Origin: Halostagnicola sp. A-GB9-2
Lineage (GTDB): Archaea > Halobacteriota > Halobacteria > Halobacteriales > Natrialbaceae
Direction: 5' to 3'
NCBI RefSeq assembly: GCF_030068615.1
Contig: NZ_JASJOC010000001.1
Coordinates: 1 to 64,000 of the forward strand
Length of the DNA stretch: 64,000 nucleotides
This document shows positions 1-2,338 of the stretch, piece after piece. Both the position numbers and the translations under genes were made by a program. The notes under the pieces were generated by a model. The model saw only the letters and a program-made list of their open reading frames with translations, was not told the DNA's origin and made no database searches. Numbering within the stretch: the first letter of the stretch is position 1; each line of letters begins with the position of its first letter.

Positions 1-561
1 AGCAACGAACGCCGGGTGGACGTCGCCGGTCTCGGGACAGCGGACGTCGTCACCATCGACGTAGACGTACGGATCGCTCTCGGTCTGGAGGAACGCACGG
101 CCGTCGAGTCGGGGATCGATCTCGGCCATCGCGATGGTTTCACCGTCGCCGTAGTTCTCCTCGAGGCCCCACTTCCAGCGAGCGTCTTCGTCGACGTCGG
201 CCTCGGGGTGATCGCGGTCAGCCCACGGGGCGAACGGCTTCTTATCGACGTGCCCCATCCACTGCTCACGTTCGAGCAGTTCGTCGGGCCAACTGTTCGA
301 CTCGGGGTTCGCGAAGTCGGCATCGGCCCATTTCGAGAACCGTGTGCGAAGGTCCGTCCGTGACCGCGTTCGTGACCTTCTCAGGTGGTCTCTGGCCCTA
401 TTATTTGAGTCTTCGGCCGGTTCCGGCGTCTCGTCGGTGACGACCTCCGCGATCGCAGCGGGTGACTCTCCGAGCGCTCCTGCGACTTCCGGGACCGACG
501 CATCGGGGTTGGCCTCGAGGTACCGCTCGACCTGTTCCTCGAGGGACTGTCGGTCGCTCAC
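1..561 (-). CDS. Primase-type replication protein of an integrated element, N-terminal part (cut by window edge)
   Basis: The frame is open from a GTG at 561 to the window edge (187 codons), so the C-terminus is missing. After a variable N-terminal part rich in Glu and Ala (a short helical, perhaps HTH-like segment at residues 1-40), it contains the series WMGHVDKKPFAPW, RWKWGLEENY and VDGDDVRCPETG. This series is typical of the N-terminus of haloviral and plasmid primase/polymerase proteins that carry a helicase further on; that match is from memory of the family, not a search. The GTG overlaps the stop of the preceding small gene (GTGA) and a GAGGTGA Shine-Dalgarno stands just upstream. Its position beside a tRNA gene supports an integrated virus or plasmid. 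Confidence 0.7.
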   Translation of the reverse strand, partial: MSDRQSLEEQVERYLEANPDASVPEVAGALGESPAAIAEVVTDETPEPAEDSNNRARDHLRRSRTRSRTDLRTRFSKWADADFANPESNSWPDELLEREQWMGHVDKKPFAPWADRDHPEADVDEDARWKWGLEENYGDGETIAMAEIDPRLDGRAFLQTESDPYVYVDGDDVRCPETGDVHPAFVA

Positions 562-785
562 GCGATCTCACCTCGTACCGCACCGCGGACTCTACGTGAA
601 TTGGCTTTCGAGCAGTCGTAGCAGAGGTAGTTGTGTGGGTGATCCGCATCGCGACCGATCGAATAGAGTTCGCGATCTACGGCCTCGGGATCAAACGTGC
701 GTCCGCAGTAGGTGAAGCCAACGAGGCCCTCGACGCAGAACCCGTTGTGGCCGTTTCCGAGGTTGACCACGTAACCGGTCGTCAC
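558..785 (-). CDS. Small putative zinc-ribbon protein of the integrated element
   Basis: About 75 residues. Cysteines are arranged as FTYCGRTF early and YLCYDCS about 30 residues later, which suggests a small zinc-binding fold; only three of these Cys lie in typical spacing, and a further Cys (GFCVEG) precedes them. I prefer the GTG at 785, which overlaps the stop of the preceding gene as GTGA; an upstream GTG at 794 in the same frame is possible. The gene is coupled to its neighbours on both sides by 4-bp overlaps, as is usual in halovirus operons. The exact function is unknown; Cys-rich peptides of this size are common in haloarchaeal mobile elements. Confidence 0.55.
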   Translation of the reverse strand: MTTGYVVNLGNGHNGFCVEGLVGFTYCGRTFDPEAVDRELYSIGRDADHPHNYLCYDCSKANSRRVRGAVRGEIA

Positions 786-1015
786 GCCGACCACCCCCAG
801 TCCTCGAACGAGGTCTGACCGTCGACGTTCGGCCGGTCGATGTCCTGGTCGTCACCGATCTCTGGGACGCCCTCGGTCCGCTCTTCGCCGACGGGTTCGG
901 GATCGGTGGCGTACTCGACGCTTTCGGCCTGTTTGTCGAGCTCAGGGCGCTCGGTGATCGCCTGGTAGGTGGCGTCGATCGAGGTGCCGGAGTATGACCG
1001 ACGGCCAGCTACCAC
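782..1015 (-). CDS. Small acidic hypothetical protein of the integrated element
   Basis: A 77-residue acidic protein starting at a GTG, with no motif I recognise. It begins with a basic stretch (GRRSYSG), then a helical segment (ATYQAITERPELDKQAESVEY) and a Glu/Asp-rich tail. It is the first gene of the three-gene leftward set, and its stop overlaps the start of the next gene. It could be a small DNA-binding or regulatory protein of the element, but the sequence does not show this. Coding is supported by the coupled overlaps and by third-position GC preference similar to its neighbours. Confidence 0.45.
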   Translation of the reverse strand: MVAGRRSYSGTSIDATYQAITERPELDKQAESVEYATDPEPVGEERTEGVPEIGDDQDIDRPNVDGQTSFEDWGWSA

Positions 1016-1121
1016 GCTTTCTCACCGCCGTTAGACGAAGCTATCGCAGTATCAGATTTATGTTGTTTAGTGCCCGACGAAACCCATCCGTACTGGACGG
1101 GTGTAAACGGGGTATAAGTAG

Positions 1122-1138
1122 TGAGGCTTTGAACCTCA
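1122..1138. other. Short hairpin between element genes and tRNA
   Basis: TGAGG and CCTCA form a perfect 5-bp inverted repeat with a 7-nt loop, just downstream of the tRNA 3' end. It could end the tRNA transcript or be part of the element's attachment region. It is short enough to be chance. Confidence 0.25.
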
Positions 1139-1145
1139 GGATCCA

Positions 1146-1219
1146 AGCCGGTGGAGGGATTTGAACCCTCGACCTAATCCTTACGAAGGATTCGCTCTGC
1201 CAGTCTGAGCTACACCGGC
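1146..1219 (-). tRNA. tRNA-Thr (anticodon CGT)
   Basis: Read leftward the sequence folds as a cloverleaf. The acceptor stem is GCCGGTG paired with CACCGGC, and the D-arm region is TAGCTCAGACTGGCAGAGC. The anticodon stem is AATCC/GGATT around the loop TTCGTAA, giving anticodon CGT, which reads ACG (Thr). The T arm is GAGGG-TTCAAAT-CCCTC, and the discriminator base is U. CCA is not encoded. No intron is seen. The 3' end faces the virus-like genes at 1-1015, the usual side for integration into a tRNA gene. Confidence 0.93.
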
Positions 1220-1309: not shown

Positions 1310-2338
1310 TTACCCCTCGAGTCGCACGTCCAGACAGACGTTGAGTTCGTGTGGCGCGTAGGATCTGACCACTCGAGAAGTTTCGACGGTTACGTTGTAC
1401 TGCGGTTCGGCGGCGTCGCGAATCGCTCGCTCCCCGGGGTCGAACGGATCGTCTTCGTGCTGGATATCGTAATAGTGTAGCACGCATTCCTCGCCCGCAA
1501 TCTGGACAGCGGGCCCGAGGAATTCGTTGGCGCTGTGCGGGAGATTCATTACGACCCGGTCGGCCCACCCTTCGTACTCGGGTGCTACCGACCGAACGTC
1601 GTCACAGATCGCCGTGACGCGGTCCTCGACGCCGTTTCGACGGGCGTTTTCGCGCAGATAGTTGATTGCCGTTTCGTTGATATCGACGCCGACGCAGGTC
1701 GCGCCGCGTTTCGCGAACGGGACGACGAACGGGCCGACCCCCGCGAACATGTCGAACGCGTTTTCGCCGGATACCACCTGTTCGGCGACCCGATTGCGTT
1801 CGGTCGCCAACCGCGGAGAGAAGTAGACCTCGGCGAGGTCGAGTTCGAACGCGGCGCCGTACTCGCGATGGACCGTCTCGGTTCCGTCGCCCTCTATTAC
1901 CTCCCAGTCGCGAGTTCGCGTTTCGCCTTTGATCTTTGAGGCCTTGTTCAGGACGGTCTCGACCGGTAGGTCGGAATCGACGATCGCTCGAGCGATTTCG
2001 GCCGGTTGCCGTTCGTCTTCGTCGCGGTTGTCTTCGTCGGCCCCCACACTGTCGTCTCCTTCGTCGAGCAATGCGACATCGCCGATTCGTTCGTAGGAGG
2101 GATCAAACCCCAGAAGATCCGCCGGCGTCGTTTGCGTTTCGCGCTCGGGGAGGTCGTAGGAGACGATCTCGAGGTCCTCGAACGCTTCGGAAACGACATC
2201 CGGGTCCGTGACCGGAATGTAGAGCCAGCCGTCCTCGACGATGATCTCGTACCCGTCGGCGATGAAATCTCCGTCAGTGAGTTCCTGACGCGTCGCTTCT
2301 CCGTTCGCAGGCGGCACGCGGACGCACGGAACGTTCAT
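1310..2338 (-). CDS. trm5: tRNA (guanine(37)-N1)-methyltransferase Trm5
   Basis: This protein of 342 residues has the archaeal Trm5 layout. A small N-terminal domain lies at about residues 1-65, followed by an acidic haloarchaeal insert near 95-115 and an RNA-binding linker. The class I methyltransferase core carries the SAM motif DMFAGVGPFVVPF (196-208) and VGVDIN (217-221). The catalytic loop NLPHSA is at 265-270 and is characteristic of Trm5. The enzyme methylates G37 next to the anticodon and so prevents frameshifting; it is cytoplasmic. The ATG at 2338 is the start that keeps domain 1 whole. It is a single gene with no coupled neighbour, 90 bp from the tRNA-Thr gene. Confidence 0.92.
   Translation of the reverse strand: MNVPCVRVPPANGEATRQELTDGDFIADGYEIIVEDGWLYIPVTDPDVVSEAFEDLEIVSYDLPERETQTTPADLLGFDPSYERIGDVALLDEGDDSVGADEDNRDEDERQPAEIARAIVDSDLPVETVLNKASKIKGETRTRDWEVIEGDGTETVHREYGAAFELDLAEVYFSPRLATERNRVAEQVVSGENAFDMFAGVGPFVVPFAKRGATCVGVDINETAINYLRENARRNGVEDRVTAICDDVRSVAPEYEGWADRVVMNLPHSANEFLGPAVQIAGEECVLHYYDIQHEDDPFDPGERAIRDAAEPQYNVTVETSRVVRSYAPHELNVCLDVRLEG

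Follow-up and report, generated by a model that had tools for sequence, protein, structure and literature searches.

The window, meaning the whole stretch of 64,000 nucleotides analysed here (G000:C1:1-64000), covers the opening 64 kb of contig C1 in a genome assembly of 38 contigs, and since it starts where the contig starts, its left edge is an assembly break and not the end of an element. A preliminary description of this end had a primase-type gene and two GTGA-coupled small genes running up to the 3' end of an intact tRNA gene, with trm5 beyond it, and the coordinates of this arrangement were confirmed, including a replication operon (gC, gB, and the primase gene) next to the tRNA. The features are the following:

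1-561, minus strand: 5' part (187 aa) of the primase gene (~1,190 aa in relatives), truncated where the contig starts; read as a DNA primase from PHROG matches of a full-length relative
558-785, minus strand: gB, small cysteine-containing protein, frame open to 794, GTGA-coupled to both neighbours
782-1015, minus strand: gC, 77-aa protein, the most tRNA-proximal gene of this window end
1125-1140: putative attachment-site arm GGCTTTGAACCTCAGG, inverted partner of the integrase-side arm on contig C35 with one mismatch
1146-1159: putative attachment-site core, 14 nt, equal to the 3' end of tRNA-Thr(CGT) and identical to C35:245,238-245,251
1146-1219, minus strand: tRNA-Thr(CGT), intact (ARAGORN call), the chromosomal target
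1310-2338, minus strand: trm5-like tRNA methyltransferase (TRM5-TYW2_MTfase, 3.9e-44), chromosomal flank outside the element

The three genes at 782-1015, 558-785, and 1-561 reach the 3' end of tRNA-Thr(CGT) and point away from it, with a GTGA overlap at both junctions among gC, gB, and the primase gene. The DNA of tRNA-Thr(CGT) and trm5 was matched in all five genus genomes searched, the own genome included.

In family searches, the 187-aa fragment of the window alone matched no primase family, and its identification relied on a full-length relative. In eight relatives the frame is open over 1159 to 1260 aa; at three more genome loci it is shorter or broken. The relative in G001 (1181 aa) matches three PHROG DNA-primase families over residues 133-293 (8.6e-11 to 8.2e-10) and a family of unknown function over residues 501-644 (4.3e-31); it also weakly matches two solved primases (E 0.011 and 0.068), but no primase model from Pfam or NCBIfam. 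When four full-length relatives are aligned, an invariant APTSLGKS is seen, followed later by DEE; we read these as putative helicase boxes. As had been proposed as a check, the primase frame was compared with haloviral primases, and it matches them: the window fragment matches a Halorubrum tailed virus gene annotated as primase in two of three records, and the nearest virus primase is that of Halorubrum tailed virus DL/DL1, 58.8% identical over residues 77-445, which cover 31% of the primase. The word "tRNA" does not occur in the main text of the DL1 paper.

Relatives of gB occur on C12, on C35, and in G013, and in several other genomes a gC relative is found between the tRNA gene and the primase gene. 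The two small genes do not always keep the same order: in G013 it is gB that is nearer to the tRNA.

Probable continuation of the element on contig C35

A search of the own genome with the full primase placed residues 786-1181 at the extreme ends of contigs C35 and C15; C1 and C12 both open with the part for residues 6-197, and the middle of the primase was not found in the assembly. The two primase ends are 91% identical over 1,228 nt and the two starts ~82 to 85% identical, from which we infer that two similar proviruses were probably collapsed by the assembly at the primase. The end of C35 bears a copy of the core (C35:245,238-245,251), 48 kb from the contig end and 53 nt before an integrase frame, then the integrase, and behind it a 48-kb stretch that includes the capsid, portal, and terminase genes and finishes with the 3' part of the primase gene. 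The assembly itself does not connect C35 with C1; the core, the arms, and synteny link them, and on these C35 would join C1. The core-to-core length is then ~51.1 kb (48,221 + ~1,764 + 1,145), where the gap of ~1,764 nt (~1.8 kb of primase) stands for 588 missing codons as judged from G001. The following genes, in frames chosen with the analysis' own script, were recognized on C35:

C35:245,305-246,573: tyrosine integrase (Phage_integrase, PF00589, 1.1e-17), at the opposite end from the tRNA, ~50 kb away
C35, minus strand: terminase large subunit (phrog_2, 4.5e-26)
C35, minus strand: terminase small subunit (4.2e-20)
C35, minus strand: portal (7.6e-28)
C35, minus strand: head morphogenesis protein (2.9e-31)
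C35, minus strand: major head (capsid) protein (weak family match, 1.9e-4; 40% identical to the ChaoS9 capsid protein, full length)
C35, minus strand: HK97-gp10 type connector (3.5e-9)
C35:251,478-254,602 (L007 16479-19603): AAA-ATPase and McrC-like pair inside the provirus

Outward from the primase, the order is terminase subunits, portal, head morphogenesis, capsid, connector, and a 1031-aa frame that we call tape-measure-sized by its length and place only. PADLOC gave weak matches for the ATPase of the McrBC-like pair and none for the McrC-like protein; the pair is possibly a carried restriction system. A polysaccharide-lyase-like protein is also carried, and many genes of the provirus have no known function.

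These findings support what had been proposed for the locus. Integration into the tRNA is borne out by the core repeat, the integrase, and the far end of the element on C35, and the direct repeat of part of 1146-1190 that was to be sought is there, as 1146-1159. The integrase, proposed to be farther left or absent, is not absent and lies ~50 kb away at the other end; ordinary core genes to the left would have spoken against the proposal, and the matching C35 end has virus head genes instead. The element had been termed virus/plasmid-like; with genes for capsid, portal, and terminase, it is a provirus rather than a plasmid. Altogether, we consider with a probability of about 95% that this end of the window is the tRNA-side end of a ~51-kb provirus of a haloarchaeal tailed virus in tRNA-Thr(CGT).

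Whether such a provirus is still whole bears on the most serious alternative, a defective remnant past excising or making particles. Directly adjoining the provirus at C35:244.2-245.1 kb is a degraded sister copy, which, together with the many genes without known function, speaks for such decay; nevertheless, the provirus has both attachment halves with their arms, and its frames for integrase, terminase, portal, and capsid are open, as is the 1031-aa tape-measure-sized one, so that we regard a remnant as unlikely, at odds of about one in four. The degraded copy itself consists of pieces of primase, gB, and gC (C35:244,188-245,102; L007 9189-10103) with most of the primase missing, and it sits between the chromosomal flank on C35 and the provirus, apparently left by an earlier insertion at the same tRNA.

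Putative attachment site and pairing of the contigs

The core of the window's provirus is flanked by inverted arms of ~16 nt, GGCTTTGAACCTCAGG before it on C1 and GGCTTTCAACCTCAGG after it on the C35 side. The genome also carries a second provirus of the same group, seen at C12:1-1141 (L006) and on C38 from 108,550 (L036), in an intron-bearing tRNA-Met(CAT) that ARAGORN misses by default and finds once introns are allowed. Its integrase is 53% identical to that of the window's provirus, and its arm GTGGGCATGTAAAG stands on either side of the core TGCCCGGGGAGGG, at the C12 tRNA-Met and the C38 integrase.

Both contig pairs break at the same places in the primase, which leaves room for a swapped pairing in which C35 belongs with C12 (tRNA-Met) and C38 with C1, the window's element being then the other provirus. 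The arms were scored against simple base shuffles in five proviruses only, a test that pairs contigs and describes the attachment site: the scores of the C1-C35 and C12-C38 pairings were each reached by 0 of 2000 shuffles, whereas those of the cross pairings C1-C38 and C12-C35 were reached by 1279 and 102 of 2000, respectively. The remaining three are tRNA-Cys proviruses, which have their own arm pair (0 of 2000 shuffles each). The core copies and arms thus fit C1-C35 and C12-C38 only. Synteny leads the same way: in G003 and G002, DNA matching C35:229-240 kb lies on the 3' side of tRNA-Thr(CGT), ~1.2 and ~1.6 kb away, which places the C35 flank beside tRNA-Thr and makes the swapped pairing very improbable. 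These two of the four genus relatives also provide the virus-free site, with the C35 flank near tRNA-Thr(CGT) and no virus between; in G001 and G004, comparison of 20 kb next to the tRNA gave no match to the C35 flank.

Repeats in tRNA trailers

In many tRNA genes, part of the gene's own 3' end is repeated in inverted orientation within 200 nt downstream, mostly ~40 to 75 nt away, followed by a direct copy from near the T-loop, inside a conserved two-hairpin repeat. The trailers examined are those of loci L100-L129 in the own genome, together with L130-L159 and L086. The own-genome sample covers 30 of 42 tRNA matches and 31 ARAGORN calls, near-identical Asp copies and a doubtful call among them; in it, a direct copy of at least 12 nt was found in 19/31 and an inverted copy of at least 10 nt in 18/31. 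The upstream control at 10 nt gave 0 inverted copies and 1 direct copy. When own ends were set against swapped ends, copies of at least 14 nt were found in 11/30 versus 7/866, and copies of 12 nt in 17/30 versus 56/866. Elsewhere, direct trailer copies of at least 12 nt follow 5 of 8 tRNAs in G039, 1 of 8 in G009, 3 of 7 in G014, and 5 of 8 in G057.

Fourteen trailers of our own choosing align to a shared consensus, and at four trailer loci the Rfam gathering score was passed by the tRNA only. In G003 (L095 19560-19718), an exact inverted copy of 20 nt of the tRNA-Thr 3' end follows at a distance of 37 nt, and the DNA fold of this tRNA with its trailer has a z-score of -9.9. No recognised description of such repeats was found in the literature searched. 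They are perhaps a small mobile repeat with tRNA-specific duplication, and possibly the newer finding compared with the provirus.

Relatives, known viruses, and a model of integration

The N-terminal part of the primase was found in 11 of the 61 genomes searched, the own genome included, and Cys, Met, and Thr tRNAs stand in the same place upstream of the primase at these loci, G015 and G045 having no tRNA there. A species collection gave 22 primase loci, four of them already seen (L064, L066, L068, and L071). With 3 kb examined, 11 of the 22 had a same-strand tRNA (Gln, Met, Thr, Ala, or Pro) 310 to 747 nt upstream of the primase match; the other 11, which include a plasmid and short contigs, had none within that distance. 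gC was detected at 7 of the 22 loci, 6 of which have the upstream tRNA. Among 14 IMG/VR records, five had a PF00589 match, in every case less than 1 kb from the record end that faces away from the primase, and one of these five carries the G001 integrase at 100% identity; in 3/14 the primase is preceded by a tRNA (Gln or Cys), and several others begin at a start codon, as if trimmed. A related primase was also found on a circular Actinarchaeum halophilum plasmid. A primase by itself is therefore no proof of a virus, and an integrative plasmid or satellite with a primase could be envisaged; with terminase, portal, capsid, and connector genes on the C35 part, we rejected this reading as very improbable.

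Copies of the core at the far end, beside the integrase, were found in G001 (13 nt), G016 (16 nt), and G029 (13 nt). In G013, no PF00589 gene was found near the element and no core copy in the ~33 kb searched; G055 had no core copy beside its integrase and is therefore not counted as confirmed. Across targets (Thr, Met, and Cys), the provirus integrases share ~36 to 53% identity; among the three Cys ones, identity is 73 to 87%.

Humcor1 and BJ1, Halorubrum viruses of the Graaviviridae, have an integrase of the same family (40 to 41% identity), and the annotated attP of Humcor1 is a tRNA-Met 3' end just upstream of int. Humcor1 is described in PMC7911831 as an induced provirus related to BJ1. 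Neither virus has a place among the 14 records matched by the primase, among the four capsid-protein records at E 1e-3, or in the organism tally of 19 terminase records, 12 of them listed, at E 1e-3. In these comparisons, structural genes related to those of BJ1, by which membership of the Graaviviridae was judged, were not found. The major capsid proteins of ChaoS9 and HHTV-1 are 40% and 33% identical to that of the provirus over nearly their full length, but these viruses are absent from the primase matches and from the terminase organism tally shown; the nearest terminase among the matches listed is that of HGTV-1 (27%). SNJ2-type integration has in common with this group a short core at the tRNA 3' end, 13 to 14 nt for the SNJ2 att sites according to PMC8371274 and 13 to 16 nt in the window's group; of the pleolipovirus integrases, that of HRPV-9 alone was compared, and the provirus integrase did not match it significantly.

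The way of life of a tailed provirus integrated in a tRNA gene is already known. According to PMC8651126, most haloarchaeal tailed proviruses found in that study sit in diverse tRNA genes with recognisable flanking repeats, and PMC11705971, PMC10544981, and PMC3119063 give further background. This virus group was not found named in the literature searched, and provirus tables in paper supplements may list it. The window's element looks like a new example of the known temperate tailed proviruses; its induction, excision, and particle production, as well as the roles of its genes, are predictions from sequence.

We propose the following model for the provirus at tRNA-Thr(CGT). In the circular virus genome, attP would consist of two inverted ~16-nt arms enclosing the 14-nt core, which equals the tRNA-Thr(CGT) 3' end, and the adjacent tyrosine integrase would recombine this attP with the tRNA gene, presumably by strand exchange. 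The tRNA gene would stay intact because the core restores its 3' end. After integration, the tRNA end would hold the replication operon (gC, gB, and primase) and the opposite end the integrase gene, and excision would bring the two side by side again. A broader hypothesis, which we hold doubtful, with about four chances in five against it, is that one tailed-virus lineage keeps its replication end at the tRNA and switches target via the 13- to 16-nt core, with arms that do not follow the tRNA. The arm of the window's provirus, although at tRNA-Thr(CGT), is similar to the flank seen in a relative at tRNA-Thr(TGT), whereas the flank of another relative integrated at tRNA-Thr(CGT) is like that of the tRNA-Cys group; under this hypothesis, the arms may follow the integrase. 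The window's arm is also similar to the tRNA T-loop (8 nt exact; 11 nt exact for the tRNA-Thr(TGT) relative), and within the same hypothesis the T-loop of the tRNA gene might serve the integrase as a binding site.

A haloarchaeal assembly can be broken by two similar proviruses in one genome, and a provirus may then pass for an element that lacks an integrase. Because many hosts display the integration sites of this virus group side by side, target switching by an archaeal integrase family becomes directly testable.
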